Shown one piece after another: positions 10,140-37,957 of a stretch of 64,000 nt of DNA. The position numbers and the translations under genes were made by a program. Under the pieces are notes generated by a model. The model had not been told where the DNA came from. It saw nothing but the letters and a program-made list of their open reading frames with translations, and searched no databases. Within the stretch, counting starts at the first letter, position 1. Every line of letters starts with the position of its first letter. The stretch covers positions 62,001-126,000 of the forward strand of contig NZ_KB894407.1 in assembly GCF_000374445.1 (NCBI RefSeq). Reading direction: 5' to 3'. Origin of the DNA: Actinokineospora enzanensis DSM 44649. GTDB lineage: Bacteria; Actinomycetota; Actinomycetes; Mycobacteriales; Pseudonocardiaceae.

Positions 10140-11504
10140 ATGACGGACAGGATCCTCGTCGATTTCCGCGGCCCCGGCTCGGGCGTCGGCGAGCTGACCT
10201 GGGGACAGCGCACCGTGTGGCGGGTGGTGGTCAAGACCGGCCGCTCGGAGACCATGGGCGGCGTCGTTCCGCTGCCCGCGGGGTCCACGGTGGACGACTC
10301 GGTCGCCGTGCTGCGCTACGTGATGGGCAGGCACCAGTCCCTGCGCACCCGGCTCAGCTTCGACGGCGCGGACGGCGGACCCCGGCAGCGGGTGTCCGAG
10401 TCCGGGCAGATCGCCCTGGAGGTGGTGGACGCCGGGATCGACGACCCGGCCGAGGTGGCCGAGCAGGTCCGGCGCCGCTACGCGGACACCGACTTCGACT
10501 ACGAGCACGAGTGGCCGGTGCGGATGGCCGTCGTGGTCGCAGGCGCCGACCGGGCCGCGACGCACTCGGTGGCGGTGTACAACCACCTGGCCATCGACGC
10601 GCACGGGATGGAGGCCATGATCGCCGATCTGTCCACTATGGACCACAAGACCGGCGGGCCGACCATGCCGCTGGACTGCACCCAGCCGTTGGAGCTGGCC
10701 GAGCAGCAGCGCAAGCCCAACGTGCTGCGCAACAGCGAGGCCGCGCTGCGCTACTGGGAGCGGGTCCTGCGCGCCGTCGCGCCAAGACGGGTCGACGGTG
10801 AGTCGGACGACCGGCGCGAACCGCGCTGGGGCACCCTGTCGCTGGAGTCGCCCGCCGCGCTGCTGGCCACCCAGGCCATCGCCGCCCGGCTGGGCACCGA
10901 CACCTCGCCCGTGCTCCTCGCAGGCTACGCGTCCGCGCTGGCCCGCACGGTCGGCAACAACCCGGTCGTGCTCCAGATCGCGGTCAACAACCGGTTCCGG
11001 CAGTCCCTGCTCGGCTCGGTGAGCACGATGGCGCAGACCTGCCCGCTCATGGTCGACCTGGCCGAGGTGCCGTTCGACGAAGCCGTGCACCGCGCCCGGC
11101 AGGCCACCATGGTCACCTACAAGTACGCCTACTACGACCCGGAGCGGCGTGCCGCCATGGTCGAGGCGGTGGCCGCGGACCTGGGCGGCCCGGTCGAGAT
11201 GGACACCTACTTCAACGACCGTCGCCCGCCCGGCCGCGAGGAGCGCTTCCTGGTCGCGCCGGAGCCGGAGGAGATCCTGGCCGCGCGCGAACGGACCACC
11301 CACGAGTGGGTGAGCTGGACCGATGTGGACAACCCGTTGCTCTATCTGGACGTCGACGAGGAGCCCGCCGCGGTCCGCTTCAGCCTCACCGCCGACACCC
11401 ACCGGGTGGCGCCCGCCGACGCGCTCGGGCTGCTCACCGAGGTGGAGACCGTCCTGGTCGCCGCGGCGCTGGACCCGGCGGCCACCACCGGCGTGTCGGC
11501 ATGA
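10140..11504 (+). CDS. Stand-alone condensation-domain-like protein 1
   Basis: This 454-residue protein has the NRPS condensation/acyltransferase fold signature without any fused adenylation or carrier domain. The HHxxxDG region reads YNHLAIDAHGMEAM: the second (catalytic) His and the Asp are kept, while the first His is Asn. N-terminal LTWGQRTVWR and later TYFNDRRPP recur in the paralogues at 17157 and 47960. It may catalyse amide or ester formation between carrier-bound units, for example from the SerRS-like ligase's carrier protein. It is the first gene of the operon, and its stop overlaps the KAS III ATG by 4 bases. Confidence 0.85.
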   Translation: MTDRILVDFRGPGSGVGELTWGQRTVWRVVVKTGRSETMGGVVPLPAGSTVDDSVAVLRYVMGRHQSLRTRLSFDGADGGPRQRVSESGQIALEVVDAGIDDPAEVAEQVRRRYADTDFDYEHEWPVRMAVVVAGADRAATHSVAVYNHLAIDAHGMEAMIADLSTMDHKTGGPTMPLDCTQPLELAEQQRKPNVLRNSEAALRYWERVLRAVAPRRVDGESDDRREPRWGTLSLESPAALLATQAIAARLGTDTSPVLLAGYASALARTVGNNPVVLQIAVNNRFRQSLLGSVSTMAQTCPLMVDLAEVPFDEAVHRARQATMVTYKYAYYDPERRAAMVEAVAADLGGPVEMDTYFNDRRPPGREERFLVAPEPEEILAARERTTHEWVSWTDVDNPLLYLDVDEEPAAVRFSLTADTHRVAPADALGLLTEVETVLVAAALDPAATTGVSA

Positions 11505-12433
11505 CCGCGCTGGCCGAGGTCTCGACGTACCTGCCGCCCGATCTCGTCCCGTTGGAGGAGCTCGCCGACCGGGTCGGCCTGACCGAACGCCAGGTGCGCC
11601 TGTTCCGCCGTTTCCACGGCCTGGACAGGATCTGCCTGGACCGCGACGGCACCGTGCTGGACCTGCTGCTGGCGGCCGCTTCCGGCCTGGAAACCTTGCG
11701 CGGCAACGAACACCGCGTGCGGTACGTGATCTACGCGCGCGGGATGCCCGCCGCCGTGCCATACCCGTACGACCCGCTGCGGGAGCTGTGCGGGAAGCTC
11801 GGCCTCGACCACGCGCTGTCGTTCACCGTCACCCACCAGGCGTGTGCCACCGGGTTGCTGGCGATCGACGTGGCGGGCCGGATGCTGGCCGACGACCCCG
11901 ATCCGGACGCGCTGGCGCTGGTGGTGTCGGGGGAGAAGACGTTCACCCCGGACGCCATGCTGGTCCCGGAGACGGCCGTCTTCGGCGAGGGCGCCGCCGC
12001 CGCGCTGATCAGCGCGGACGGCCCACGCGACCGTCTGGTCTCCTACACCACCAGCATCCGCGGCGACTTCGACGGCAGGCTGGTCGTCGACCCGACACTG
12101 GCCCTCCGCTTCCAGAACGAGTACCCGGCGCTGCTGTCCGAGGTGCTGCTGGCCGCGGTGGAACGGTCCGGGACGCCGCTGGCCGAGATGGCGGTCCTGT
12201 TGCCGCACAACGTGAACGCGGTCTCCTGGCGGCGGGTGGCCAAACGCATCGGCTACCCGGTGGAGCGGGTGGTGCTGGACAACGTGCCGGTCACCGGGCA
12301 CAGCTTCGCCGCCGACCCGTTCCTCAACTACCGCACCGCCCTGGACCGGGGGCTGCTGCGGCCGGGGGACCGGTACCTGGTGGGCGCCGCGGGACTGGGC
12401 GCCACGTTCTCCGCGATGGTCTTCGAGCACTAG
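11501..12433 (+). CDS. KAS III-like ketoacyl synthase with altered third catalytic residue
   Basis: This 310-residue thiolase-fold enzyme resembles FabH/KAS III. The nucleophile lies in THQACATGLLAID (Cys near residue 111) and the His in LPHNVNAVSW (near 237). Where FabH has the GNTSAAS Asn, this protein reads TGHSFAADPFLNYRTAL, so the third triad residue appears to be His. Such departures occur in KAS III relatives that act as acyltransferases or use unusual substrates. GAAGLGATFSAMVFEH closes the fold. It would prime a chain or transfer an acyl unit onto the ACP encoded next. Confidence 0.87.
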   Translation: MTALAEVSTYLPPDLVPLEELADRVGLTERQVRLFRRFHGLDRICLDRDGTVLDLLLAAASGLETLRGNEHRVRYVIYARGMPAAVPYPYDPLRELCGKLGLDHALSFTVTHQACATGLLAIDVAGRMLADDPDPDALALVVSGEKTFTPDAMLVPETAVFGEGAAAALISADGPRDRLVSYTTSIRGDFDGRLVVDPTLALRFQNEYPALLSEVLLAAVERSGTPLAEMAVLLPHNVNAVSWRRVAKRIGYPVERVVLDNVPVTGHSFAADPFLNYRTALDRGLLRPGDRYLVGAAGLGATFSAMVFEH

Positions 12434-12450
12434 TTCTGATGGGAGGACCC

Positions 12451-12765
12451 GTGGGGTCTGTGGAGATAGTCGAGTCCGATGTCACAGCCGAGACCGCCGA
12501 TGTCACCGCGTTGCGGGACAGGGTGACCGCGAGCATGAGCGAGCTGCTGCCGCGCGTGCTCAAGCGGGACGTCCCGGAACTGAACGCGGACACGACGCTG
12601 TTCGCCGGGCTCGGCCTGAGCTCGGCCAGCACCCTGGAGCTGCTGCTGGAGCTGGAGGACGAGCTGGAGATCCAGATCGACGTCGAGGAGATCGACCAGG
12701 GCGACCTGGAGACCGTCGGCACCCTGGCCCGCTACATCGCCACGCACACCGTCGCGGACGAGTGA
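12451..12765 (+). CDS. Acyl/aminoacyl carrier protein
   Basis: This is a small acidic carrier protein of about 104 residues with LFAGLGLSSASTLELLLELE, in which the usual DSL is SSA; the attached Ser is one of this pair. Helix II LELLLELEDELEIQI and the closing VGTLARYIATH are typical. The GTG at 12451 has GGGAGG just upstream; an ATG at 12439 in the same frame is the alternative. It lies two genes before the transferase that would pantetheinylate it and near the SerRS-like ligase, whose family charges carrier proteins with small amino acids, so it is the best candidate partner. Confidence 0.85.
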   Translation: MGSVEIVESDVTAETADVTALRDRVTASMSELLPRVLKRDVPELNADTTLFAGLGLSSASTLELLLELEDELEIQIDVEEIDQGDLETVGTLARYIATHTVADE

Positions 12766-13643
12766 TGTTCGGCTCCGGCCCGCCCGGCGCGCCCGCCCCA
12801 CCGGCCCGGTTGGTCGGCGCGCTGTCCCGGGTGTTCGACGAGACCTCGCCGACCGCGCTGGACCCGGCGCTGCGCCCGTTCCTGGCGGACCTGGTCCGCC
12901 CGTACGGGACGGCGCTGCGCGAGGACCTGCTGGCCGCGGGCGTCGGGCACTCGTTCGGCGAGATGGCCGAGCGGCTGCTGCCCGCGGTCGTGGGCCCGGA
13001 CGAGCCGGTGGACCTGCTGATCGTTGCGTTCGCCATGCACGACCTGAGACTGGGCCGTGCCACCGCGTGCTACCTGAGCGACCGGTGTCCGGGCAAGCCC
13101 AACGCGTTCGCCGTGTGCGACCAGGGCTCGGGCGCGGCGTTCACCGCGTTGCGACTGGCCGGGTCCTATCTGGGCACACCGGACTGCTCGCGGGCGCTGG
13201 TGTTCGTGGTGGAACAGTCCGCTTTGCACTACGAACCGCTCGCGCCCGCGCCGATACCCGACCGGCACACCGCTGTCGTGTTACGCCTGGAGTCCGGTTC
13301 GGACGGTGCGCCGGTCGCCGGTCGTCAGCACACCGGGGTGGACGCCAAGCGGCTGCCTGGCCTGTTATTGGCGGAGATCGGCCGGGTGTCCGGCGATCGC
13401 GAGGACGTCACGGTCGTCGGCTCGGCCCGGTTGGCCGCCGCCGCGCCCGGCCTGGTCGACGTCGTGACCGACGCCGGTCAGCCCTATACCGGGATCTGGG
13501 CGGACCTGGCCGGGCGCGCCGACGGGCTGGTCGTGCTCGCCGACCACGAGCCGTCGCACGGTCTGCTTTGTCTATCCACAGTGGACTTCAAGAGTGCTGC
13601 GAAATCCACTATGGACGCGGATCCGGTCGGGGTGGCAGCATGA
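12765..13643 (+). CDS. KAS III/thiolase-like partner protein
   Basis: This protein of about 292 residues shows weak thiolase-fold features: LLIVAFAMHDLRLGRATACYLSDR, then NAFAVCDQGSGAAFTALRLA with a possible nucleophilic Cys near residue 120, then ALVFVVEQSALHY. The C-terminal half lacks the His and Asn motifs of a normal KAS III. It may be a degenerate partner of the KAS III at 11501, or an acyltransferase. I use the ATG at 12765, which overlaps the ACP stop (TGATG); a GTG at 12762 is equally in frame. Its stop overlaps the transferase start by 4 bases. The assignment is tentative. Confidence 0.72.
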   Translation: MFGSGPPGAPAPPARLVGALSRVFDETSPTALDPALRPFLADLVRPYGTALREDLLAAGVGHSFGEMAERLLPAVVGPDEPVDLLIVAFAMHDLRLGRATACYLSDRCPGKPNAFAVCDQGSGAAFTALRLAGSYLGTPDCSRALVFVVEQSALHYEPLAPAPIPDRHTAVVLRLESGSDGAPVAGRQHTGVDAKRLPGLLLAEIGRVSGDREDVTVVGSARLAAAAPGLVDVVTDAGQPYTGIWADLAGRADGLVVLADHEPSHGLLCLSTVDFKSAAKSTMDADPVGVAA

Positions 13644-14311
13644 GCGAGGCCGACACCGTGTGCGTCTGGCTGGTCGACTCGGCGCTGCCCCCGGTGCTGA
13701 TGAGCGAGCTGGCAGCCTCCCTGGACGAGGGCGAGCGGCGCCGCGCGGACGAGATGGACCCGCTGCGGCGGCGGGAGTTCGTGGCCGCGCACGGGGCCGC
13801 GCGGCTGCTCACCGGTCGGGTGCTCGGCATGGCGCCCGACCGGGTCCGCTGGCGGATCGGCAGGCACGGCAAGCCCGAGGTCGACGGGCTGCGGGTGAGC
13901 CTGTCCCGCTCGTCCGGGCTGGCCATGTTCGCCTGCACCGCCCGCCGCGCGATCGGCGTCGACCTGCAGCGGGTCGACGAAGGCCTGGACGTCGGCCGCA
14001 CCGCCGACCGCTACTACCCGGCCGACGAGGCCAGGCACGTGGCCGACTGCCCGCCGCACGAGCGGCCCACCCGTTTCACCGGGCTGCTCACCCGCAAGGA
14101 GGCGTGCGTGAAGGCCGCGGGCGGGCGGCTGTTCCCCGGGCTGCGGCTGCCGGTGCACGGGCGGGCGGTGGTCCGCCAGGCCGACGGCCCTTACCGGGTG
14201 CGGGACCTGCCCGCGCCCACCGGCTACGCGGCCGCGGTCGCGCTGGCCGGGATCGACGACTACCGGGTCCGCGCGCACCGCTGGCCCGACGAAGGAGTAC
14301 GACCATGGTGA
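13640..14311 (+). CDS. 4'-phosphopantetheinyl transferase (Sfp type)
   Basis: This 223-residue protein carries the Sfp/AcpT signatures: RREFVAAHGAARLLTGRVLG at the N-terminal half, IGVDLQRVDE (magnesium-binding Asp, near residues 110-120) and LLTRKEACVKAAGG (near 150-163). It transfers phosphopantetheine from CoA to the Ser of carrier proteins, here presumably the two ACPs of this cluster. A dedicated transferase within the operon supports a carrier-protein-dependent pathway. It overlaps the upstream stop by 4 bases and the downstream SerRS-like start by 7. Confidence 0.92.
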   Translation: MSEADTVCVWLVDSALPPVLMSELAASLDEGERRRADEMDPLRRREFVAAHGAARLLTGRVLGMAPDRVRWRIGRHGKPEVDGLRVSLSRSSGLAMFACTARRAIGVDLQRVDEGLDVGRTADRYYPADEARHVADCPPHERPTRFTGLLTRKEACVKAAGGRLFPGLRLPVHGRAVVRQADGPYRVRDLPAPTGYAAAVALAGIDDYRVRAHRWPDEGVRPW

Positions 14312-15186
14312 ACCTCGGCGAGACGGACCTCCCGCTCGGCACCGGCGTCCCCGGGGTCTACCTGTCCCCGCCCGGGTTCGAGCGGGTGATCGACCTGTTG
14401 CGCTCGGGTGTCGCCGCGCTGGCCGCGGACGAGCCGTTCCAGCGCCTGGTGATCCCGCCGGTGATCTCCCGGCAGACCATCGAGCGCGCCGGGTACGTGC
14501 AGGCGTTCCCGAACCTGCTCGGCACCGTGCACGGCTACGGCGGCACTCCCAGCGGTTGGGCCCGGCTCAAGCCGCTGGTCGAGGAGGGCGGCGAGTGGTA
14601 CGCGCAGCAGCAGATCGGTGACCTGGTGCTGCTGCCCGCCGCCTGCTACCCCGTCTACGCCACGCTCGCCGACCGGACTCTCGACGAGCCTGCGAAGGTG
14701 TCCGTGGAGGCGTCCTGCTTCCGGCAGGAGGCGACCAGCGAACCGGGACGGCTGCGCTCGTTCCGGATGCTGGAGCTGGTCACCGTGGCCACCGACGAGG
14801 ACTGTCTCAAGTGGCGGGCCGCGCGGCTGGAACAGGTGGAGGGCTGGTTCACCGAGCTGGGCCTGGCGGTGTCGGTGGAGGTCGCCGACGACCCGTTCTT
14901 CGGTCCCGGCCGCAAGGTCTACCAGGCGGCGCAACGCATGCAGGAGCTCAAGTGGGAGCTGCGCGTGCCGCTGGCGGACGGCACGGTCCAGGCCGTGGCC
15001 TCGGCCAACTACCACAAGGAACACTTCGGCGAGACCTTCGGCATCACCGCGGGCGGCGCCCCCGCGCACACCTCATGTGTCGCGTTCGGACTCGAACGAC
15101 TGGCCATGGCGCTGATCAACCGGCACGGCAAGGACTCCACGCGGTGGCCCGGCGACGTGCTGGCCGCGCTCGGGGGCGCCCGATGA
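14305..15186 (+). CDS. Amino acid:[carrier protein] ligase (truncated SerRS-like class II synthetase)
   Basis: This 293-residue protein is a class II aminoacyl-tRNA synthetase catalytic core with no N-terminal tRNA-binding arm. Motif 2 is visible as EASCFRQEATSEPGRLRSFR and motif 3 as SCVAFGLERLAMAL. Cys114, a Glu near 157 and Cys258 match the Cys-Glu-Cys zinc arrangement of archaeal-type SerRS and of amino acid:carrier-protein ligases, which adenylate Gly or Ala and load it on a dedicated carrier protein instead of tRNA. With an ACP and a phosphopantetheinyl transferase next door, loading an amino acid onto the 12451 ACP is the best reading. The ATG at 14305 has an AAGGAG RBS. The amino acid cannot be told by eye. 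Confidence 0.85.
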   Translation: MVNLGETDLPLGTGVPGVYLSPPGFERVIDLLRSGVAALAADEPFQRLVIPPVISRQTIERAGYVQAFPNLLGTVHGYGGTPSGWARLKPLVEEGGEWYAQQQIGDLVLLPAACYPVYATLADRTLDEPAKVSVEASCFRQEATSEPGRLRSFRMLELVTVATDEDCLKWRAARLEQVEGWFTELGLAVSVEVADDPFFGPGRKVYQAAQRMQELKWELRVPLADGTVQAVASANYHKEHFGETFGITAGGAPAHTSCVAFGLERLAMALINRHGKDSTRWPGDVLAALGGAR

Positions 15187-16157
15187 CCGCGCCGGACAGC
15201 GTCGCGCTGTACCGGATGATCCGGTTCATCCGGCGGTTCGAGGAACGGTCGGTCGACCTGGTCAAGTCCGGGGAGATCGTCAGCGGGGTGCACCCGTGCA
15301 TCGGCCAGGAGGCCGTGTCCGCCGGGGCCTGCGCGACCCTGGAACCCGACGACATCGTGCTGTCCAGCCACCGCGGCCACGGGCATCTGCTGGCCAAGGG
15401 CTGCGACCCGGCCAGGGTGATGGCCGAGATGGCCGGGCGCGTCACCGGGATCGACAAGGGGCGCGGCGGCTCGTTCCATCCCTCGGACTTCTCCGCGAAC
15501 GTCTACAACGCGACCGGTACGGTGGGACACGGTTCCGGCATCGCGGCCGGGATCGCCTGGGCGGCGGTGAAAGCCGGGAAGTCCACTGTGGTCATGAGCT
15601 TCTTCGGCGACGGCGCGGTCACCCAGGGTGCGCTGCTGGAGGGCTTCAACCTGGCCGGGCTGTGGAACCTGCCGGTGGTCTATATTTGCGAGAACAACGG
15701 ATACGCCACGACACTTCCCGTTCAGACCGCGGTTTCCGGTACGATCACAGGGCGCGGCGAGGCGTTCGGCATCCCGTCCTCCACAGTGGATGGACAGGAC
15801 GCGGAGACCGTCTTCGCGGCGGTGTCCGAGGCGGTCGAGCGCGCTCGCTCCGGTGGCGGTCCCTCGCTGCTGGAGATGCGCACCTACCGCTACCACGGGC
15901 ACCACACGTTCGAGCTCAAGACCCGGCTGAAGTACCGGGAGCAGGCCGAGATCGACGAGTGGCGGCTGCGCGACCCGCTCGACATCCAGGCCGCCCGGGT
16001 GGCCGCGGACGTCCGCGCGCGCATCGACGACGAGGTGGAGCGCGAGCTGGACGAGGTCGTCCGGTTCGCGGTCGAGAGCCCGCGGCCGGACCCGGCCGAC
16101 GCCACCGACCACATGTACGCCGACGGGTTCCGACCCCGCGCGGGCGTCTCGCTGTAG
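15183..16157 (+). CDS. Thiamine-diphosphate E1 alpha subunit (pyruvate/2-oxoacid dehydrogenase-like)
   Basis: This 324-residue protein has the ThDP motif GDGAVTQGALLEG...ENN (near residues 142-173), plus SSHRGHGHLLAKG and GRGGSFHPSD as in PDH/acetoin dehydrogenase E1 alpha chains, and TYRYHGHH near 235. It would decarboxylate a 2-oxoacid or cleave a ketose with the beta subunit. No E2 or E3 gene is in the window. In quinocarcin and naphthyridinomycin pathways E1-like proteins feed a two-carbon glycolyl unit to an ACP, which is a plausible role here (inference). The ATG overlaps the ligase stop by 4 bases. Confidence 0.9.
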   Translation: MTAPDSVALYRMIRFIRRFEERSVDLVKSGEIVSGVHPCIGQEAVSAGACATLEPDDIVLSSHRGHGHLLAKGCDPARVMAEMAGRVTGIDKGRGGSFHPSDFSANVYNATGTVGHGSGIAAGIAWAAVKAGKSTVVMSFFGDGAVTQGALLEGFNLAGLWNLPVVYICENNGYATTLPVQTAVSGTITGRGEAFGIPSSTVDGQDAETVFAAVSEAVERARSGGGPSLLEMRTYRYHGHHTFELKTRLKYREQAEIDEWRLRDPLDIQAARVAADVRARIDDEVERELDEVVRFAVESPRPDPADATDHMYADGFRPRAGVSL

Positions 16158-16185: not shown

Positions 16186-17163
16186 ATGCCCAAGCTGTCC
16201 TACCTGAAGGCGCTCAACCGCGCCCTCGGCGACGAGATGACCCGGGACGAGTCGGTCTTCGTCCTCGGCGAGGACATGAACTTCGCGCTCACCAACGTGA
16301 CCGCCGGGTTCCTGGACCGCTTCGGCCCCGACCGGGTGGTGGAGGTGCCGCTCACCGAGCAGGGCTTCACCAACTTCGCCACCGGCGCGGCGCTGGCCGG
16401 TCGCCGTCCCGTGGTGGAGTTCCAGATCCCGTTCCTGTTGCTGCTGGTGTTCGAGCAGATCACCAACCAGGCCAACAAGTTCCTGCTGATGAGCGGCGGC
16501 CAGCGCAGCGTCCCGGTCACCTACCTGATGCCCGCCGCGGGCTGGCGGCCCGGGTGGGGCGCGCAGCACTCCGACCAGCCGTACAGCCTGTTCGCGCACA
16601 TGGGCGTGAAGACCGTGCTGCCCGCCACCCCCACCGACGCCTACGGACTGTTGACCACGGCCATCCGCGACGACGACCCGGTGGTGTTCTTCGGGCCGCT
16701 GGCGTCGCTGACCGTGCGCGAGGACGTCGACTACGCCGATCTCGGACCGATCCCGCTGGGTTCCGGCCGGGTGCACCGGGCCGGAACCGACGTCACGGTC
16801 GTGGCGTTGGGCCACCTGGTGCACGAGGCGCTCGCGGTGGCGGACGAGCTGGCCGCCGAGGCGTCGATCGAGGTGTGGGACCCGCGGTCGGTGTACCCGT
16901 TCGACTGGACCGGGCTGGCCGAGTCGGTGGCGCGCACCGGGCGGCTGGTCGTGTTCGACGACTCCAACCGGTCCTGCGGCATGGGCGCGGAGATCCTGGC
17001 CACGGCGGCGGAGGAGATGCGGCTGACCGCGCCGCCGCGCCGGGTGACCAGACCGGACGGGGCGATAGTGGGCGCCGTCCCGGAACTGGACGTGGTGTTG
17101 CAGCCGACCCGGGCGCAGCTGGCGGAAGCCGTGCGCGCGGTGCTCAAGAGCCCCGGATGGTGA
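16186..17163 (+). CDS. Thiamine-diphosphate E1 beta subunit (transketolase-like)
   Basis: This 325-residue partner of the E1 alpha chain begins SYLKALNRALGDEM, with FVLGEDM, then the conserved PLTEQGFTNFATGAALAG and FEQITNQANKF. The C-terminal transketolase domain has DVTVVALGHLVHEAL and later EVWDPRSVYPFDW and VVFDDSNRSCGMGAEI. A strong RBS (GGGGGAGG) precedes the ATG after a 28-base gap. The pair forms the active site at the subunit interface. Its position between the amino acid ligase and a condensation protein argues for a biosynthetic role rather than central metabolism. Confidence 0.9.
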   Translation: MPKLSYLKALNRALGDEMTRDESVFVLGEDMNFALTNVTAGFLDRFGPDRVVEVPLTEQGFTNFATGAALAGRRPVVEFQIPFLLLLVFEQITNQANKFLLMSGGQRSVPVTYLMPAAGWRPGWGAQHSDQPYSLFAHMGVKTVLPATPTDAYGLLTTAIRDDDPVVFFGPLASLTVREDVDYADLGPIPLGSGRVHRAGTDVTVVALGHLVHEALAVADELAAEASIEVWDPRSVYPFDWTGLAESVARTGRLVVFDDSNRSCGMGAEILATAAEEMRLTAPPRRVTRPDGAIVGAVPELDVVLQPTRAQLAEAVRAVLKSPGW

Positions 17164-18698: not shown

Positions 18699-20522
18699 AT
18701 GCACGGGTTCCCCGCCGTCCACGAGGTCTGCGTCGTCGGCGCGGGCCCGCGCGGCCTGAGCGTGGTGGAGCGGCTCTGCGCCAACGCGACCGGGCCGCTG
18801 GTGATCCACCTGGTCGACCCGTACGCCGGGCGGGGGAGTCGGGTGTGGTCGGTCGACCAGCCGGGTTCGCTGCTGATGAACACCATCGCCTGCCAGGTGT
18901 CGATGTTCACCGACGCGAGCGTGGCGTGCACGGGGCCGATCGTGCCGGGTCCGTCGCTGTACGAGTGGGCGCAGGGGGTCACCGATCCCCGGTTCGAGGC
19001 CGAGGCGCGCTCGTTGACACCGAACTCGTACCCGACGCGGGCGTTCTACGGGCATTACCTGGACTGGGTGCTCGACCGGGTGTGTCGGACGGCGCCCGCG
19101 GGGGTGTCCGTGCGGGTGCACCGGCGGACGGCGGTGGAGCTGGTCGAGGCGCCGGACGGCGGCCAGGCCGTGCTGCTGGACGACGGATCCGCTGTGGATG
19201 GTCTGGCGGCGGTGGTCCTGGCGCAGGGGCATGTGCAGATGCCGTTGGGTGCGGGGGAGCGGGTGCTCGCGGATCTCGCGGTGGCGCAGGGGCTGTGGTA
19301 CTGGGGTCCGGGGAACCCGGCGGAGATGAACCTGGGCGCGCTGATGCCCGCGGAGCCGGTGGCGGTGCGCGGGTTGGGGCTGGCGTTCTTCGACGTGTTG
19401 ACGTTGTTGACGGTGGATCGGGGCGGGCGGTTCGCCCGTCGATCCGATGGTTCGCTGGCCTATGTACCGTCCGGTCGGGAGCCGTCGATCGTGGCCGGTT
19501 CACGGCGTGGGGTGCCGTATCACGCGCGGGGCGAGAACGAGAAGGGCGCGTTCGGACGGCATGAGCCGCGTTTCCTGACCCCCTCGGTGATCGAGTCGCT
19601 GCGTTCCCGGCCCGCGGTGTCGTTCCGGGACGACATCTGGCCGTTGATCGCCCGCGAGGTGGAGCTGGTCTATTACACAGCGCTCGTGGGTGCTGAACCT
19701 GCTGCGCGGTTCATGGCGGGAGAAGTGGAACTCCCGGTTCCTCGGTGGGACTGGTCGACTATCGCCTGTCCGCACGAGGGCCGCCGGTTCGATTCCCCGG
19801 CCTCCTTCGATTCCTGGCTGTTGGATCTGCTGCGCGCGGATGTGGTGCGCGCGTATGGCGGGAATGTCGGCGATCCGGTCAAGGCCGCGCTGGATGTCCT
19901 GCGCGACCTGCGCAACGAGATCCGGTTGGCGGTCGACCACGGCGGCGTGACCGGCTCGTCCTATCGGTCCGATCTGGACGGTTGGTACACGCCGCTCAAC
20001 GCCTTCCTGTCCATCGGGCCACCGGCGAGTCGGGTGGCCGAGCTGGTGGCGTTGATCGAGGCGGGCGTGGTGCGGATCGTCGGTCCCGGGATGCGGGTCG
20101 TGGTGGGGGATGGCGGGTTCGAGGTGAGCTCGCCGGTGGTGGCGGGCTCGGCGGTGGTGACCGAGGCGTTGATCGAGGCCCGGCTGCCCGAGGTCGACAT
20201 CCGGCGCACCGGCGACCCGTTGCTCACCCGCCTGCGCGAGTCCGGCGACTGCGCTCCTTATCGGCTCGCGGATCCGGACGGTCCGGTGGAGACCGGCGGC
20301 CTGGCGATCACCGAACGGCCGTACCACCTGCTCGACGCGGCGGGGCGGGCCCATCCCCGGCGGTTCGCGTTCGGCGTGCCCACGGAGTCGGTCCACTGGG
20401 TCACGGCGGCGGGGATCCGGCCCGGGGTGAACTCGGTGATCCTGGCCGACGCGGACGCGATCGCCCGCGCTTCGCTGGCGGTTCCGGCGGTCACGCGCGC
20501 CGTCGTGGGCCGACCGGCTTGA
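18699..20522 (+). CDS. FAD/NAD(P)-binding monooxygenase, likely CreE-type (aspartate to nitrosuccinate)
   Basis: This 607-residue flavoprotein has the dinucleotide motif CVVGAGPRGLSVVERL at residues 10-25, then VWSVDQPGSLLMNTIACQVS, GPSLYEWAQG and NSYPTRAFYGHYLDWV. These stretches resemble CreE/FzmM flavoproteins, which oxidise the amine of L-aspartate to nitrosuccinate; that comparison is from memory of the family. The key support is the neighbour: a fumarase-superfamily lyase that fits CreD, the second enzyme. If right, the pair supplies nitrous acid for N-N bond formation or diazotisation. The general FAD/NAD(P)-binding family is broad, so the specific call needs a tree. It is separated from the upstream operon by a hairpin. 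Confidence 0.75.
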   Translation: MHGFPAVHEVCVVGAGPRGLSVVERLCANATGPLVIHLVDPYAGRGSRVWSVDQPGSLLMNTIACQVSMFTDASVACTGPIVPGPSLYEWAQGVTDPRFEAEARSLTPNSYPTRAFYGHYLDWVLDRVCRTAPAGVSVRVHRRTAVELVEAPDGGQAVLLDDGSAVDGLAAVVLAQGHVQMPLGAGERVLADLAVAQGLWYWGPGNPAEMNLGALMPAEPVAVRGLGLAFFDVLTLLTVDRGGRFARRSDGSLAYVPSGREPSIVAGSRRGVPYHARGENEKGAFGRHEPRFLTPSVIESLRSRPAVSFRDDIWPLIAREVELVYYTALVGAEPAARFMAGEVELPVPRWDWSTIACPHEGRRFDSPASFDSWLLDLLRADVVRAYGGNVGDPVKAALDVLRDLRNEIRLAVDHGGVTGSSYRSDLDGWYTPLNAFLSIGPPASRVAELVALIEAGVVRIVGPGMRVVVGDGGFEVSSPVVAGSAVVTEALIEARLPEVDIRRTGDPLLTRLRESGDCAPYRLADPDGPVETGGLAITERPYHLLDAAGRAHPRRFAFGVPTESVHWVTAAGIRPGVNSVILADADAIARASLAVPAVTRAVVGRPA

Positions 20523-20627
20523 GCGTTTCGCCACACGGTCGACGTGGACCGCTCACGGCAGGCAGACCCGTTGGTAGCCACTAGGATGAGCAGCGGGATT
20601 GATCGACGATCGGTGTGAGGGAGACTC

Positions 20628-21959
20628 GTGGTCGGGACGGACAGTGGGCTGTTGGCGCCGGTGTGGGCTGGGACCGAGGTGTCCGAGATCGTGACCGACG
20701 AGGCCTGGGTCGTCGCGATGGTCGAGGTCGAGGTCGCGCTTGCTCGGGCGCAGGCGGAGCTGGGAGTGATCCCGGCGGAGGCCGCCGCCGCGATCGGTGA
20801 AGCGGTCGCCGAGCTTGATGTCGTCGACTTGGCGGTGAAAGCCCGGGGCGGGGCGAACCCGGTGGTGGCGTTCGTGACCGCGTTCACCGCGTGCGTGCCC
20901 GGCGAGGCCGCCGAGTACGTGCACCGGGGCAGCACGAGCCAGGACATCCTGGACTCGGCCGCCATGCTCATCACCTCGCGCGCTTTCGCCCTCATCGACC
21001 GCGACCTCGTCAACACCGCCGAAGCCCTGGCCCGGCTCGCCGACCGGTACCGGGACGCGGTGATGGCCGGGCGGACCCTCACCCAGCACGCCGTCCCGGT
21101 CACCTTCGGGCTCAAGGCGGCGGGCTGGCTCACCCTCGTGGTCGACGCTCTGTCCCGGCTGCGCGCGGTGGTGTTGCCCGCCCAGCTCGGTGGGGCGGCG
21201 GGCACCTTGGCGTCCTATGTGGAGTACTCCGGCGATCCCGGCCACGGGCCCCGGCTCAGCGCCGAGTTCGCTCGGCGGCTCGGGCTGGTGGAGGCTGTCG
21301 TTCCCTGGCACGCGTTGCGCACGCCGTATGCCGACATCGGGGGTGTGTGCTCGATCATCACCGGGGCGTTGGGCAAGATCGCGCTCGACGTGCAGGGCAT
21401 GTCCCGCACCGAGGTCGCCGAGGTGGTCGAACCCTCCGCCGAGGGGCGGGGCGTGTCGTCGGCGATGCCGCAGAAGCGCAACCCGGTCCTGGCCACCCTC
21501 GTCATGTCCGCTGCCCGCCAGGTCCCCCTCCAGGCGACGATCCTCACCCAGTCCATGATCGCCGAGGACGAGCGCGCGCCGGGCGCTTGGCACGCGGAGT
21601 GGCAGCCGCTCCGCGAGATTCTCCGTCTGACCGGTGGGGCTGCGGCCACGGCCGCCGAACTGGCGGCGGGCCTGGAGGTCTTCCCCGATCGCCTCCGCGA
21701 GAACCTGGCCATCACCGGTGGCACGATCGTCTCCGAACGGCTCAACGTCGCTCTCGCGCCGGTGTTGGGGAAGGCCGAGGCCAAGAAGCTTCTCGGCAGG
21801 CTTTCTCGTGAACCCGACTTCGCCGAGGCTCTGCGCGCTGCCCCCGAACTGTCCTCGGTGGACGTCGACGCGCTGCTCGATCCGGCGGGCTACCTCGGGG
21901 CGACCGATGCGCTCATCGAGCGTGCCCTTGCCTACCATCGTGAGGTCGTTGGCCACTAG
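20628..21959 (+). CDS. Fumarase/aspartase-superfamily lyase, likely CreD-type nitrosuccinate lyase
   Basis: This 443-residue lyase has the superfamily signature SSAMPQKRNPV near residue 280 and HRGSTSQDILDSA near residue 98, and is closest by eye to 3-carboxy-cis,cis-muconate cycloisomerase/adenylosuccinate lyase-type proteins. CreD enzymes are usually annotated that way; they eliminate nitrous acid from nitrosuccinate, giving fumarate. No protocatechuate (pca) genes are nearby, which argues against a catabolic role. The GTG start at 20628 has a GAGGGAG RBS. The 105-base gap from the flavoprotein allows either read-through or its own promoter. It is convergent with the acetyltransferase. Confidence 0.78.
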   Translation: MVGTDSGLLAPVWAGTEVSEIVTDEAWVVAMVEVEVALARAQAELGVIPAEAAAAIGEAVAELDVVDLAVKARGGANPVVAFVTAFTACVPGEAAEYVHRGSTSQDILDSAAMLITSRAFALIDRDLVNTAEALARLADRYRDAVMAGRTLTQHAVPVTFGLKAAGWLTLVVDALSRLRAVVLPAQLGGAAGTLASYVEYSGDPGHGPRLSAEFARRLGLVEAVVPWHALRTPYADIGGVCSIITGALGKIALDVQGMSRTEVAEVVEPSAEGRGVSSAMPQKRNPVLATLVMSAARQVPLQATILTQSMIAEDERAPGAWHAEWQPLREILRLTGGAAATAAELAAGLEVFPDRLRENLAITGGTIVSERLNVALAPVLGKAEAKKLLGRLSREPDFAEALRAAPELSSVDVDALLDPAGYLGATDALIERALAYHREVVGH

Positions 21960-24603: not shown

Positions 24604-27351
24604 TCACCCGACCGCGGGCAGGCCGATGGCGTCGGACAACGCCGTGGTCGCGCTGGTCTGCTCGGGCGAGGTCCTCGGACCGCCCCGCCTGCCCCGCGCC
24701 GGGTCGGTCGCACCTCGCACCGTGACCGGTGCGTCGGGTACGGGCGCCGGTCCGCGCGGTGCGGGTGTGTTTGGCGTGCGACGGGCCCGCGTGGCCGTGT
24801 GCAGGGCGAGTAGGACGCCCGCGGAACCCGTGGCGAGGTCCATCGACAGGCGCAGCAGCCAGCGCCCGGGAAACGCGATGCCCTGCCGGTGGCGCACGGC
24901 CTGCCAGCTCAGCCTGCGGATGTGCGGGGCGGTCACATGCGACCCGGGGCAGGCGACGGCCAGGGCGGTGAGCAGCCCGGCCCGGCCGAGGAAGAGCCCG
25001 GGTTCCACGGTCAGCGGCGCTCGGCACGCGGCGAGGATGCCCGCGTGCACCTCGGACCACGGGCCGCTCGGGCGGTGGCGCAGGTACCGCCCGAGCGGTT
25101 CGAGCAGGCCGGCGCCGCCCACCGCGAGGTGGCCCAGGGCCAGCGTGCCGTCGGTGAGCACCACGTCGCCGCGGTCGGTCCGGCGGCTGCCCGCCAGGTC
25201 CGCGGCCAGGGCCCGGCCCGCGAGGTCGAGCAGGGCCGGGTCGGCGGTGTCGTCGTGCCGCCGCAGGCAGAACACCGCGACACCGGTCCAGCCGGGCATC
25301 AGACCCGCCCGTGCGGCGCCCGGTCCGCGTTTCGCGGGACTGTGCCTGCCTGTCCCGTGTCGTTCCGGGAGCTGCGGTGGCGGCGCGGTCGCCGGATCGG
25401 TGCCGGGCGGGAGGTGGAGACCACTCCCCGGGGTGGTCGAGCGGGTGACGACGCGATCGGTGACGGCGTCCAGCGCGTCACGCCAGTAGGTGTCGGCGGT
25501 GCGTGCGGCGAAGTACCGCAGGGCGAGGCCGATACCGGGCAGTCCGCCGAACAGGCCGGGCGTCTCCGGGTCGGGCAACTCGACCAGTCGCCGCATGATG
25601 CGGTATGCGTCGTCCTCCCTGCCCAGCGCGTGCAGGACCACGGCGGCGCCGTGCATGCCGTTGTACAGCCCGGCCTGCGGCTCCGCGCGGTGCACCGCGG
25701 CGGCCAGCCAGTCGACGTGGTCCTCGGGCACCGGTTGCCCGGTCGTGTGCAGCGCGTACAAGACGCCTGCCGCGCCGTGGGCGAGGTTGTAGCCGCCGTC
25801 GCGCAGACCGGCGGGATCCCCCGGGTACAGCCGGTCGAGGCGGTGTGGGGTCGCGGAGGCGAGGATCGACTCCGCCACCGCGTCGCGAGCGTCGGCGGAG
25901 TCGCCCGCGAACAGTTCCGCGGTGCGGGGGCGGGGGCACGGTGTGGTCCGTCGGTCGGCCGGACGCCGCAGACCTGTCCGGATCTCGGCGATCAGGTCGG
26001 CCGGGACCGGGAAGAGTTCGGCGACCGCGTCGACCAGTTCGTCCACCTTGTCCGGAGCCAGATCCAGCATGGGGGTCAGCGGGAGGAAGATCGCCAACCG
26101 GAGGCAGTTCAGCGCGTACCGGTCCCGTTCCGGACCGGCGAGCGCGTGCGCCGCGACGAACCCGGGCGCGCCGATGGTCGGCGCGGGTTGGCTGTCCGGC
26201 CGGTAGGCGATCTCGAAGTCCACCAACGCGACCCGGCCGTCCGGCCGCACGATCACGTTGCCCGGGTGCAGGTCGGCGAACACGTAACCGCGCTCGTGCA
26301 ACCGGTCCAGGGCCTGTTCCACCCCGGCCAGCACGGCCAGCGCGGACTCGGTGTACGCGGCGACCGCGGCGGCGTCCGGACTCCCGCCGGTCAGCGGGTT
26401 GCGGGTGGCGATGAAGGACAGCAGCGTCTCTCCATCGATGTACTCCTCGGCCAGGAACTCGTGTTCCCACCGGCGGAAGCGGCCCAGGTTGCCGGGCACG
26501 AAGTCCAGATCGGACAGTTCGGCGAGCACGCGGGCCTCGTGCCGCAGCCGGGCCACCGCGTCCCGGCCCGTCGCGTCCAGTCCGGCGTGCGGCCGTGCCT
26601 CGCGCAACACCACCCGGTCCCGCGGGTCCGTGCCCCGGGCCAGGTAGACGCCGCCCCCGTTGGAGAAATGCAGTGCCTTCTCGACCGCGTAGGGGATCCC
26701 GTTCCCGTTCCGTTCCGCCATCGCGATCCGGTCGGTGATGAACTCGGGCGGGCGCACCCAGTCGGGCACGGTGAACCCGGGGCCGCGCACGTCCGGGACG
26801 AGCGTCCCGTCCGGTCGACGGATCGCGGGGACCCGGTGCCCCTGCTCGTCGGTGCAGTACATCATGCGGAAACCGCCGAACCGCAGGAACAACGGCCCGC
26901 GACCCCACCGCAGATCGCTGAGGATGTACGGCCCCGGGCGGGTGCCGAGCAGGACGGAAAGTTCGGCCAGCGTGCGGCGCAACTCGTCCGCCCGCGGGTA
27001 GACGGTGATCAGTTTCCCGCTGCCGCCGCGCGGCGCGTACTTGCTGTTCGCCAGCAGGTGCGTGCGCGGCGAAACGAGGAACTTGACGGCGATCCGCCCG
27101 GACAGGCAGTGCCCGGTGACGAGGTCGATGACCTCCTCGGCCTGGCCCGCGGTCACCGAGACGTGCAGTTTCCACCCCTGCTCGGGCAGCTCGTGCCCGT
27201 CCGGGGTGAGGTAGACCCAATGACCGTCGGATTCCCGGGTCCAGCCGTCGGGCAGCGGTCGTTCCGCCGCGCCGAAGCGCGGGTCGGGACCGGCCGACGG
27301 GTGGTCGTAGAAGTCCGGATCGGCCTGGCAGTACTGGAGGTAGTCGTCCAC
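24604..27351 (-). CDS. lanKC: Class III lanthionine synthetase LanKC
   Basis: This 915-residue trifunctional enzyme has an N-terminal lyase-like region starting DDYLQYCQADPDFYDHPS, a Ser/Thr kinase-like domain with FADLHPGNVIV (HRD-like, near 360) and LVDFEIAYRP (DFG-like, near 377), and a C-terminal LanC-like cyclase (about 540-915) with LYNGMHGAAVVLHAL and PGWTGVAVF. The Cys-Cys-His zinc ligands of class IV LanL cyclases are not visible, which supports class III. It phosphorylates, eliminates and cyclises Ser/Thr and Cys in the precursor at 23248. The GTG at 27351 is chosen because the homologous N-terminus begins there; an open frame further upstream is non-homologous. Confidence 0.93.
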   Translation of the reverse strand: MDDYLQYCQADPDFYDHPSAGPDPRFGAAERPLPDGWTRESDGHWVYLTPDGHELPEQGWKLHVSVTAGQAEEVIDLVTGHCLSGRIAVKFLVSPRTHLLANSKYAPRGGSGKLITVYPRADELRRTLAELSVLLGTRPGPYILSDLRWGRGPLFLRFGGFRMMYCTDEQGHRVPAIRRPDGTLVPDVRGPGFTVPDWVRPPEFITDRIAMAERNGNGIPYAVEKALHFSNGGGVYLARGTDPRDRVVLREARPHAGLDATGRDAVARLRHEARVLAELSDLDFVPGNLGRFRRWEHEFLAEEYIDGETLLSFIATRNPLTGGSPDAAAVAAYTESALAVLAGVEQALDRLHERGYVFADLHPGNVIVRPDGRVALVDFEIAYRPDSQPAPTIGAPGFVAAHALAGPERDRYALNCLRLAIFLPLTPMLDLAPDKVDELVDAVAELFPVPADLIAEIRTGLRRPADRRTTPCPRPRTAELFAGDSADARDAVAESILASATPHRLDRLYPGDPAGLRDGGYNLAHGAAGVLYALHTTGQPVPEDHVDWLAAAVHRAEPQAGLYNGMHGAAVVLHALGREDDAYRIMRRLVELPDPETPGLFGGLPGIGLALRYFAARTADTYWRDALDAVTDRVVTRSTTPGSGLHLPPGTDPATAPPPQLPERHGTGRHSPAKRGPGAARAGLMPGWTGVAVFCLRRHDDTADPALLDLAGRALAADLAGSRRTDRGDVVLTDGTLALGHLAVGGAGLLEPLGRYLRHRPSGPWSEVHAGILAACRAPLTVEPGLFLGRAGLLTALAVACPGSHVTAPHIRRLSWQAVRHRQGIAFPGRWLLRLSMDLATGSAGVLLALHTATRARRTPNTPAPRGPAPVPDAPVTVRGATDPARGRRGGPRTSPEQTSATTALSDAIGLPAVG

Positions 27352-27493
27352 GGGGCCACTTGTCCTGGTTCGGATCGAGACCTGATGGGGGAGTGGCGCC
27401 GACTTTATGGCCGTGTGACGGGGAATCCGCGTCCCGCGGCCAGTGGCAGGCATGTTCATGCCAAGGTGCGGCAAAGCTGGGAATACCGGGACC

Positions 27494-27533
27494 GGGCGGG
27501 ACAGGGCGGGACAGGGCGTGGGACCACTACACT
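27494..27533 (+). promoter_or_regulatory. Putative leaderless-type promoter with 10-bp direct repeats before the SARP gene
   Basis: GGGCGGGACA occurs twice in tandem (27494-27503, 27504-27513) and begins a third time. TACACT (27528-27533) is a -10-like box eight bases before the GTG. The repeats cover the -35 zone and could be an operator. The gap also serves the divergent lanKC gene. Confidence 0.45.
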
Positions 27534-27541
27534 CGTACAGC

Positions 27542-30322
27542 GTGCGCTTCGTCCTGTTGGGGCCCATCCGAGCGTGGCGGGGCGAGGTCGAGGCGGACCT
27601 GGGACCACCCACCCGGCGGGCCGTGCTCGCCGTCCTGCTGGCCCACGCCGGGACCCCGGTCCCGCTGGACCGGATCATCGACATACTCTGGGCCGATGAC
27701 CCGCCGGACAGCGCGGCCAACATCGTGCACCGGCACATCGGCCACCTGCGCCGTCTGGTCTCGCCGGAGCAGGCCCTCACCGGCGGGGCGGGCGGCTACC
27801 TGCTGCCGGTCGACGCGGAAACCCTCGACCTGGTGCGGTTCCGCGAATGCGGCGCGGCGGCGACGGCGGCCACCGACCAAGGCGCGGCCTGGGACCACCT
27901 CGCCGAGGCGCTCGCCCTGTGCCAGGGGCCGACCGTCGCGGGTGTCCCGGCCCGGGTCCGGACCCACCCCGTGTTCACCGCGATCGACCAGGAGCGGCTC
28001 GCCGTCCTGCGCCGGGCCGCGGACACCGCGCTCGCCGCGGGCCACCCGGACCGGGTCCTGCGCGCGCTGACCGCCGCCGGGGCCGAGCACCCGCTGGACG
28101 AGGCGGTGCAGGCCGGGCTGGTCCGGGTGCTGGCGGCGACCGGGCGGCAGGCCGAGGCGCTGTCCACCTACCAGGCCGTGCGTGCCCGCCTGGCCGACGA
28201 GCTGGGCGTGGACCCCGGGCCGGACCTGCGCGCCGCGCACGCCCAGGTGCTCGACCAGACCGTGCCCACCCCGACGCCCGTGGCCGCCCGGCCCGCGTTC
28301 GGCCCCGCCCAGCTGCCCACGGACCTGCCGACGTTCACCGGTCGCGCGGTCGAGCTGGCGCGGATCCGGGAACTGGCGGCGGGGGAGGGGATCGGGGTGC
28401 TGATCACCGTCATCAGCGGCATGGCGGGGGTGGGCAAGAGCACCCTGGCCGTGCGCGCCGCGCACACGCTCGCCGCTCGGTTCCCGGACGGGCAGCTCTA
28501 CCTCGACCTGCGCGGCTTCGACCGCACCGGCGCGGTGGTGTCCACGGGCGAGGCGATCCGCACCCTGCTGGAGACGCTGGGCGTGCCGCCGTCGGACATC
28601 CCGGTCGGCACCGACGCGCAGACCGCGCGCTACCGCGCCCTGCTCGCGGGCCGCCGGGCGGTGGTGGTGCTGGACAACGCGGGGGACGCCGAGCAGGTCC
28701 GCCCGCTGCTGCCCGGTTCGCCCGGCTGCCTGGTCCTGGTGACCAGCCGGGACCGGCTGCGCGGACTGGTCGCCACGCACGGCGCCCAGTCGATCACCCT
28801 GGCCGTGCCCGGCCCGGCCGATGCCCGGGAGTCGTTGCGCCGCAGGCTCGGCGCGGCCAGGGTGGCCGCCGAGCCCGGCGCGGTCGGCGAGATCCTGGAC
28901 CGGTGCGGGCGGTTGCCGCTGGCGTTGGCGGTGGTCGCGGCCCGCGCGGCCACCCACCCGGGCTTCTCCCTCGCCACCATCGCCGCCGAGCTGCGGCGGA
29001 GCGCGGGCAGCCTGGACGCGTTCACCGACACCGACCCGGTGGCCGACGCGCGGGCGGTGTTCTCCTGGTCCTACCGGGTGCTGAGCCCGCAGGCGGCTCG
29101 CCTGTTCCGGTTGCTCCCGGGACATCCCGGGACAGCCGCGTCGGTGGCCGCTGTCGCCAGCCTCGCGGGTGTCGGTCCAGGCGCGGCGCGGACCCTGCTG
29201 CGCGAACTGGGCGACAACCATCTGGTCGAGGAATCCGCGCCGGACAGCCACACCTGCCACGATCTGCTGCGCGCCTACGCCGCCGAGCTCGCCGCCACGC
29301 ACGACCCGGCAGCCGCGCTCGCGGACGCCCGCCGTCGACTCGACGACCACTACCTGCACTCCGCGGAGGCGGCCGCCACGACCCTGCACCCCTACCGGGA
29401 ACGTCTCCTGCCGTCGACCGAACCCGCCGACGGCGTCGTGCTCGCCGACGTCGCCGACCATGACGCGGCCGAGTCCTGGCTGCGCGAACAGCGCGCGGTG
29501 CTGGTGGCGATCGTCGAACGCGCGGCGCACGAGGGGTCCGGCGACCACGGCTGGCGGTTGGCCCGCGCGCTGGAGCTGTTCCTCGATCGCCTGGGCAGCA
29601 GGCAGGACCAGCTGACCGTGCACCGCGCGGCGCTGGCGATCGCGGATCGGCTCGGCGAACCGTTGCGGCTGGCCGACGCCCATCGGGCGGTCGGGTTCGC
29701 GCTGCTGCGGGTGGACCGCCATGACGAGGCCGGGCACCACCTCGACCAGGCCCTGCGCCGGTTCGGCGACCTCGGTCACCACGCGGGCCGGGCCCGCACC
29801 CGACGAGCGCTGGCCTTCCAGGCCAACATCCTCGGCGACCACGCCGCCGCCCTGGCCCACTACGATCACGCGCTGGCCGACTACGACGCGACGGCGAGCA
29901 GCGCGGGCAGGGCCCGGGTGCTCAACGAGATCGGCTGGACGGACGTGCTGCTCGGCGACCACGCCCGCGCGCTGACCCGGTGCCGGGAGTCGCTCGGGCT
30001 GCACCGACGGACCGGCGACCGCAACGGCGAGGCCGCCGCGCTGGACAGCCTCGGGTACGCCTACCACCACCTGGGCCGCCACGAGCGGGCGATCGACTGC
30101 TACCGGCGCGCGGCGCACATCTATCGGGAGATCAGCGACCGCTTCCTGGAGGCCGACACGCTCGCGCACCTCGGCGACAGCCAGGACGCCAGCGGCGACC
30201 GGGACGCGGCCGGGATGGCGTGGCAGGAGGCGTTGCGGTTGCTGGAGATGTTGCGCCATCCCGGGACGGAACGCCTGCGCGACAAGCTGGACCGACTCCG
30301 GGTGGTCGCGCGCCGCGCCTGA
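27542..30322 (+). CDS. AfsR/SARP-family transcriptional regulator (wHTH-BTAD-NB-ARC-TPR)
   Basis: This 926-residue regulator has an OmpR-like winged helix (residues 1-90, FVLLGPIRAWRG and RRAVLAVLLA), a bacterial transcriptional activation domain (about 95-240, ending ADELGVDPGPDLRAAHAQVL), an NB-ARC NTPase with Walker A GMAGVGKSTLA near 294 and Walker B VVVLDNAGDAEQV, then TPR-type repeats to the end (for example SLGYAYHHLGRHERAIDCYR). SARPs activate antibiotic clusters through direct repeats. It is divergent from lanKC by 190 bases and is the likely cluster activator. I use GTG 27542; upstream in-frame codons lack homology. Confidence 0.9.
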   Translation: MRFVLLGPIRAWRGEVEADLGPPTRRAVLAVLLAHAGTPVPLDRIIDILWADDPPDSAANIVHRHIGHLRRLVSPEQALTGGAGGYLLPVDAETLDLVRFRECGAAATAATDQGAAWDHLAEALALCQGPTVAGVPARVRTHPVFTAIDQERLAVLRRAADTALAAGHPDRVLRALTAAGAEHPLDEAVQAGLVRVLAATGRQAEALSTYQAVRARLADELGVDPGPDLRAAHAQVLDQTVPTPTPVAARPAFGPAQLPTDLPTFTGRAVELARIRELAAGEGIGVLITVISGMAGVGKSTLAVRAAHTLAARFPDGQLYLDLRGFDRTGAVVSTGEAIRTLLETLGVPPSDIPVGTDAQTARYRALLAGRRAVVVLDNAGDAEQVRPLLPGSPGCLVLVTSRDRLRGLVATHGAQSITLAVPGPADARESLRRRLGAARVAAEPGAVGEILDRCGRLPLALAVVAARAATHPGFSLATIAAELRRSAGSLDAFTDTDPVADARAVFSWSYRVLSPQAARLFRLLPGHPGTAASVAAVASLAGVGPGAARTLLRELGDNHLVEESAPDSHTCHDLLRAYAAELAATHDPAAALADARRRLDDHYLHSAEAAATTLHPYRERLLPSTEPADGVVLADVADHDAAESWLREQRAVLVAIVERAAHEGSGDHGWRLARALELFLDRLGSRQDQLTVHRAALAIADRLGEPLRLADAHRAVGFALLRVDRHDEAGHHLDQALRRFGDLGHHAGRARTRRALAFQANILGDHAAALAHYDHALADYDATASSAGRARVLNEIGWTDVLLGDHARALTRCRESLGLHRRTGDRNGEAAALDSLGYAYHHLGRHERAIDCYRRAAHIYREISDRFLEADTLAHLGDSQDASGDRDAAGMAWQEALRLLEMLRHPGTERLRDKLDRLRVVARRA

Positions 30323-32105: not shown

Positions 32106-32133
32106 GGGCTCCCCGGCCGCGGTCGGGGAGCCC
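32106..32133. terminator. Bidirectional hairpin between protease and NACHT genes
   Basis: GGGCTCCCCG and CGGGGAGCCC pair perfectly over 10 bases with an 8-base loop, placed between the stops of two convergent genes. Confidence 0.75.
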
Positions 32134-34871: not shown

Positions 34872-34884
34872 CCACTGAACTGTA
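34872..34884 (-). promoter_or_regulatory. Leaderless-type -10 box for NACHT copy 1
   Basis: On the minus strand TACAGT (34884-34879) is followed by exactly seven bases and then ATG. This is the usual spacing of actinobacterial leaderless transcripts. The same word and spacing precede copy 2. Confidence 0.55.
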
Positions 34885-37806: not shown

Positions 37807-37872
37807 GTGCTCGTTCAGCCGATCCCGGCGGACCACAACGGCGACTACGTGCACCGGATTCGTACGGTGTCG

Positions 37873-37955: not shown

Positions 37956-37957
37956 AT

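Follow-up and report, generated by a model that had tools for sequence, protein, structure and literature searches.

The window analysed here is a stretch of 64,000 nucleotides from Actinokineospora enzanensis DSM 44649 (bases 62001-126000 of contig 5 in a genome of 8.1 Mb), in which two adjacent plus-strand open reading frames (ORFs) encode a CreE-type L-aspartate N-hydroxylase, or nitrosuccinate synthase (18699-20522, 607 aa), and a CreD-type nitrosuccinate lyase (20628-21959, 443 aa). Both ORFs have a GC content at third codon positions of the coding type (0.88 and 0.89, respectively), and the pair lies at the end of a cluster of about 25.6 kb, for which 23 genes were scored, from an FMN hydroxy-acid oxidase to CreD. 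The same cluster encodes a ligase of the ANL family that is likely an ATP-dependent diazotase, so that the supply and the use of nitrite may be encoded together.

The flavoprotein motif GPRGLSVVERL, reported in the initial annotation, is found exactly in ORF 18699-20522, in which Pfam recognises an FAD-NAD(P)-binding domain. A single distinct PDB sequence is matched by this protein, namely 8CP2/8CP5 (E 5e-180; 57% identity to 8CP2), which represents the L-aspartate N-hydroxylase of Streptomyces sp. V2 (PMC10404684). Each of the 11 residues that this source locates near the cofactors, in the arginine cluster or in the entry chamber is identical in the flavoprotein and in the seven orthologues that were checked. 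The tree built for the flavoprotein has 43 rows, namely the window protein, 8CP2, 40 CreE loci out of 80 fetched (30 of these 40 also with a CreD match) and one paralogue of the same genome; 42 rows, including the window and 8CP2, group together, apart from the paralogue, which has 31% identity. CreE and FzmM themselves are not among the rows, and the clade is thus anchored by 8CP2 only. Judged by homology, the protein is a CreE-type aspartate N-hydroxylase, and the family call of the initial annotation holds.

The neighbouring lyase carries the motif SSAMPQKRNPV exactly as first described. Its top NCBIfam model is nitrosuccinate lyase, NF052556 (566.7 bits), which exceeds both PcaB models (358 and 348 bits) by at least 208 bits, and the PDB ranking is led by CreD, 5XNY (425 bits), followed by PcaB (271 bits); the identity to ScCreD is 59%. 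An alternative assignment, with a PcaB-like lyase (or another catabolic enzyme of the fumarase superfamily) and an unrelated flavoprotein monooxygenase, could appeal to the PcaB model TIGR02426, whose score of 348 bits falls just below its cut-off of 355.75, and to the active site. All 20 CreD positions scored, drawn from published mutagenesis and consensus data (the SSxMPxKRNP loop, R341, E49/H118 and D125/H253 among them; PMC13411527), are identical in the lyase; however, PcaB 1Q5N has 18 of the 20 and the fumarate lyase 3C8T has 15, so that the residue check suggested in the initial annotation gave the expected identity without being discriminating. The tree discriminates: among its 65 rows (61 from loci picked for their nearness to CreE, and two outgroup rows only), one clade (100/100) unites the 63 CreD-type rows, ScCreD and the window lyase among them, and leaves 1Q5N and 3C8T outside. 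The two groupings therefore fall where the initial annotation had placed them, the lyase with CreD and the flavoprotein with 8CP2. Additionally, no protein of the genome scores above the PcaB cut-off, and CreE and CreD are found together in 7/7 genomes. The catabolic assignment is thus very improbable, as profile score, tree and genome search all speak against it, and by its family membership the protein is a CreD-type nitrosuccinate lyase.

The initial annotation proposed looking for a diazotase gene to the left of position 1; a gene for a diazotase-type ligase exists, but it lies inside the window (1430-3037, plus strand). The top NCBIfam model of the encoded AMP-ligase is 3-aminoavenalumate diazotase, NF058622 (461 bits), and the next family scores 172 bits, or 289 less. 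In a midpoint-rooted tree of 39 rows, among which AvaA6 and CmaA6 themselves do not figure, 15 diazotases from loci bearing a gene for 4-hydroxymandelate synthase (HmaS) form one clade (100/100). These comprise the window protein, seven from the same cluster in other members of the genus (the composite cluster hereafter), three from second Actinokineospora loci and four from Streptomyces. The sister of this clade consists of eight rows from ava/cma-like loci (the two groups together 100/99), one of which, L054, resembles ava/cma in its diazotase only. The ligase is thus likely an AvaA6-type diazotase, and the N-N chemistry first proposed for the locus gains support, because this gene lies in the same conserved cluster as the pair.

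All 23 scored genes recur, with order and strand unchanged, in 7/7 other Actinokineospora genomes compared. Of the second operon, described below, the E1-alpha gene occurs in 9/16 genomes of the genus, that of the window included, and the same nine carry a diazotase with an identity of at least 78%. To the right of CreD, the next six genes scored (Eis-like, major facilitator superfamily, RamC-like and three more, up to 31048-32097) have matches in 0/7 of the fetched stretches. Since a gene on the left side, chitinase-like by eye, and the window gene at 38995 are matched in all seven relatives, the latter on the opposite strand in one, the cluster appears to occupy one chromosomal place. Of the seven relatives, only A. 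auranticolor has CreE and CreD set apart by some 0.8 kb of additional DNA (L009, 11.8-12.6 kb). Other features of the surroundings are a RamC-like lanthionine synthetase (24604-27780; PF25816, 238 bits), two long adjacent minus-strand genes (32133-34964 and 35013-37802), which match a gene right of the cluster in 4/7 relatives, and CRISPR-Cas type I-E-like genes left of the window (contig 5, about 35100-43100; Cas3, Cas5, Cas6 and Cas7-like, named by eye).

The diazotase is accompanied by an acyl ligase, two acyl carrier proteins (ACPs) and a set of ketosynthase-related genes, all of the window genes being on the plus strand. A ketosynthase-like chain-length factor (CLF) is represented by its 3' part (1-789; the start of the gene lies about 260 bp outside the window on the left) and keeps the active-site Cys, with Asn in place of one active-site His. 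It is followed by a Ketoacyl-synt_2 (PF13723) protein of 215 aa (786-1433; 28 bits, cut-off 25) and, beyond the diazotase, by a ketosynthase (KS; 3034-4302) with Cys-His-His present, an HmaS-like dioxygenase (4334-5362) and a PhyH-type 2-oxoglutarate oxygenase (5359-6264; PF05721, 82.6 bits). Three minus-strand genes separate this part from the second operon. They encode a putative permease of the ATP-binding cassette (ABC) type (6792-7556), named from its sequence, its kept position in 7/7 genomes and the adjoining ATPase, a DrrA-type ABC ATPase (7569-8522; TIGR01188, 333 bits, cut-off 312) and a macrolide-type glycosyltransferase (8519-9688; TIGR01426, 160 bits, below the cut-off of 260).

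The second operon, on the plus strand, leads directly into the CreE/CreD pair. It begins with a stand-alone condensation protein, C1 (10140-11504; PF00668, 52 bits), and a KAS III-like protein (11501-12433; PF08541, 49 bits), in which Cys and His are present and a His appears to stand in place of the usual Asn. A carrier protein (12439-12765; PF00550, 40 bits) and a conserved 293-aa protein (12762-13643) follow. For the latter, searches of Pfam and NCBIfam gave no match, and the AlphaFold2 model is too weak for interpretation (mean predicted local distance difference test score 51); it is a possible inactive KAS-like partner, and we presume a resemblance of the two proteins to PqsC/PqsB. The operon continues with a 4'-phosphopantetheinyl transferase (13640-14311; PF01648, 36 bits), an amino acid:carrier-protein ligase of the SerRS-like Bll0957 family (14305-15186; 4H2W, 204 bits over 278 aligned residues; NF005479, 281 bits, below the cut-off of 357), the alpha (15183-16157; PF00676, 227 bits) and beta (16186-17163; PF02779 and PF02780) subunits of a thiamine diphosphate-dependent E1 enzyme and a second stand-alone condensation protein, C2 (17157-18584; PF00668, 68 bits). 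HxxxD is present in both condensation proteins. The context outlined in the initial annotation, in which this ligase and the condensation proteins precede the pair and an HmaS-like gene lies upstream, is present in full. No ketoreductase was recognised among the cluster genes, nor was a modular nonribosomal peptide synthetase (NRPS) gene seen. Related clusters with an ABC transporter, glycosyltransferase, condensation proteins, KAS III, an E1 pair and KS/ACP occur at six further loci (L122-L126 and L130, in genomes G081, G032 and G088), that of G032 also with a hydroxy-acid oxidase and an amino acid:carrier-protein ligase; no diazotase match was present in their fetched stretches. Together with the second half of the window cluster, they would constitute a wider family of non-modular assembly lines.

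The genes for the putative amine precursor are distributed over both sides of the window border. The enzymes of the L-4-hydroxyphenylglycine pathway are HmaS, Hmo and HpgT. The top PDB match of the HmaS-like protein is 2R5V, PCZA361.1 (309 bits), which ranks above the chains named HPPD (271 bits and below). The FMN hydroxy-acid oxidase, at the left end of the scored genes and 3.6 kb left of the window, scores 407 bits against a double-length chain of L-lactate oxidase, compared with 309 for glycolate oxidase and 295 for 4-hydroxymandelate oxidase; its role as a hydroxymandelate oxidase is less certain than the HpgT role of the aminotransferase. The latter is encoded at 57023-58288 of contig 5, between a lipase-like gene and the oxidase, and its top PDB match is a multiple-substrate aminotransferase, the likeness to HpgT coming from genomic association only. 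Across 397 genomes of the order, with near relatives counted separately, 59/80 copies of the aminotransferase homologue have an HmaS homologue at a distance of 25 kb or less, 16 of them within 5 kb; both homologues occur in 61 genomes, one of them being present in 70 and the other in 67. Among the cluster-positive genomes, four lack a second HmaS-type diazotase locus and carry the aminotransferase inside the composite cluster, one of them with two more, weaker copies, and five have such a second locus, where their only aminotransferase match (E 1e-60 or better) is located. This placement fits the HpgT role and hence a hydroxyphenylglycine supply shared by the two loci. Furthermore, three HmaS-type loci (L032, L049 and L069, from A. 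diospyrosa, A. globicatena and A. inagensis, respectively) have CreE and no CreD match in the fetched 21.9 kb, and these species have CreD in the composite cluster. This arrangement and the distribution of the aminotransferase suggest that the HmaS-type locus and the composite cluster lend each other parts.

The AvaA6 match of the diazotase would suggest 3-amino-4-hydroxybenzoic acid (3,4-AHBA) as the source of the amine. A homologue of the GriH-type 3,4-AHBA synthase is found in 6/8 ava/cma-like loci, the others being L054 and L079, the latter with its sequence truncated on the relevant side. By contrast, the PF01959-type homologue was found in 0/10 pieces of HmaS-type loci (seven loci), in 0/25 composite pieces and nowhere in the window, in a search that covered this synthase and left its aldolase-type partner aside. 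As 5/9 cluster-positive genomes are without a PF01959 match and no composite piece encodes the synthase, 3,4-AHBA was rejected as a necessary precursor.

Taken together, it is probable that the pair is the nitrite-supply end of the conserved cluster, that CreE and CreD make nitrous acid and that the diazotase uses the resulting nitrite on an amine made by the cluster. As expected from their homologues, CreE would convert L-aspartate to nitrosuccinate, and CreD would cleave the latter to fumarate and nitrous acid. The AvaA6-type ligase (1430-3037) would then activate nitrite with ATP and diazotise an amine produced by the same cluster. HmaS, the hydroxy-acid oxidase and the HpgT-like aminotransferase, if they act as their families predict, would lead from 4-hydroxyphenylpyruvate via 4-hydroxymandelate and the keto acid to L-4-hydroxyphenylglycine, and the derivation of the diazotised amine from hydroxyphenylglycine is proposed tentatively, with a chance that we place slightly below even. 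With lesser support, the acyl ligase may load hydroxyphenylglycine on an ACP, where KS/CLF would add one malonate to give an alpha-amino-beta-keto thioester that is then diazotised. The second operon may place another amino acid on its carrier protein through the amino acid:carrier-protein ligase, and C1 and C2 may join the pieces. In its most specific form, the proposal is that the ANL diazotase takes, in place of an aromatic amine, an aliphatic, benzylic alpha-amino ketone, i.e., KS/CLF-extended L-4-hydroxyphenylglycine, and yields an aryl alpha-diazo-ketone, which the condensation proteins join to the amino acid loaded by the tRNA-synthetase-like ligase; this version is speculative and we consider it unlikely as a whole. 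Such an aryl alpha-diazo-ketone can close with its own active methylene to a 3-aryl-4-hydroxypyrazole.

Several observations, besides the limited discrimination of the CreD residues, weigh against this assignment of the pair and the diazotase. Neither profile match reaches its curated cut-off, as NF052556 requires 650 bits and NF058622 requires 975. The substrates of AvaA6 and CmaA6 are aromatic amines (PMC10777205), and the alpha-amino substrate proposed for the HmaS-type branch is putative; likewise, the specificities of the acyl ligase, the amino acid:carrier-protein ligase and the E1 pair are assigned at the family level only. The ninth genome (G022) keeps the cluster and the diazotase with no CreE/CreD match in the 40 kb fetched, CreD elsewhere in that genome not having been sought, and its CreE relatives elsewhere have 44-45% identity only; the pair is thus not strictly obligatory. 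Finally, the window CreE and CreD group apart, in the trees, from those of other HmaS-type loci, for which reason the nitrite-supply pair seems to have been recruited separately, joining the diazotase part from another source.

This separate grouping is also compatible with two neighbouring clusters, one of the HmaS-type diazotase kind (genes as far as 6264) and one of the amino acid/condensation kind with CreE/CreD at its end, which would make two products and merely share nitrite. In agreement with such an arrangement, those HmaS-type diazotase loci that have a CreE of their own (and, in four Streptomyces, also a CreD) gave no second-operon match in the flanks that were fetched, relatives of the second half (ABC, glycosyltransferase, condensation, KAS III and E1 genes) occur in other families with no diazotase match in the fetched stretches, and the window pair is not closest to that of the HmaS-type loci. 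The two halves nevertheless stand together in the same order in 7/7 genomes and in the more divergent G022, and CreE/CreD are missing from the left half here, which makes two separate products improbable. A different objection concerns the fate of the diazo group, because nitrite could serve a diazotisation-dependent deamination, as for avenalumic and p-coumaric acids, and leave a final product with no N-N bond. The diazotase is sister to those of ava/cma-like loci, and the diazo group is removed in the ava and cma pathways; the cma cluster also includes cmaG, for an FMN-dependent oxidoreductase to which the FMN oxidase here may correspond (PMC10777205). Against this outcome, which we judge rather unlikely, a reductase of the AvaA7 type was not recognised among the genes, AvaA7 itself not having served as a query. 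Penzonemycin was rejected as the product, the 3-hydroxyanthranilate genes given in the pzm paper not being seen here; crexazone and spinamycin were considered and not adopted.

The preferred reading, in which a single cluster joins nitrite supply, diazotase and an in-cluster amine, points to an undescribed compound made through an N-N bond, as far as gene content can indicate. The exchange of an aromatic-amine module for a hydroxyphenylglycine-type module around one diazotase clade would predict that enzymatic diazotisation extends to a new class of substrates, and the predicted route would reach diazo-ketones or pyrazoles without hydrazine intermediates, in a cluster present in nine sequenced species of one genus. 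Among the matches listed in the open-licence literature, none connects the nitrosuccinate pathway with genes for hydroxymandelate synthase or hydroxyphenylglycine, none of those found for Actinokineospora and diazo chemistry joins these parts, and none concerns this arrangement of an amino acid:carrier-protein ligase. The combination of nitrite supply, an ANL diazotase and a type II polyketide synthase is known; as far as the literature was searched, its hydroxyphenylglycine-type version joined to a ligase and condensation operon appears to be undescribed.

The closest known systems are the ava and cma clusters for avenalumic and p-coumaric acids (PMC10777205), which likewise contain an acyl-ACP ligase, two ACPs, KS, CLF, an ATP-dependent diazotase and CreE/CreD homologues. 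Those clusters include the 3,4-AHBA synthase genes (AvaH/AvaI), whereas none was found here in the search for the PF01959-type homologue; instead, this cluster has HmaS, the hydroxy-acid oxidase, the HpgT-like aminotransferase and the PhyH oxygenase, along with the second operon (amino acid:carrier-protein ligase, condensation proteins, KAS III-like protein and E1 pair). Cremeomycin CreD and the Streptomyces sp. V2 aspartate N-hydroxylase share 59% and 57% identity, respectively, with the window proteins, in which their named functional residues are conserved, and they differ in cluster context and presumed amine substrate. The L-4-hydroxyphenylglycine pathway is similar in that members or likely members of its three enzyme families lie in one cluster; the differences here are the association with diazotisation genes and that no gene for a modular NRPS was seen. 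The dob cluster makes 4-diazo-3-oxobutanoic acid by hydrazone oxidation (PMC13061610), and a ketosynthase extends a carrier-bound, nitrogen-bearing acyl unit toward a diazo-ketone end product, as is reported for dob and proposed here. However, the N-N unit of dob arises from hydrazinoacetate and hydrazone oxidation, whereas in the Actinokineospora cluster it would be formed from nitrite by an ANL diazotase.

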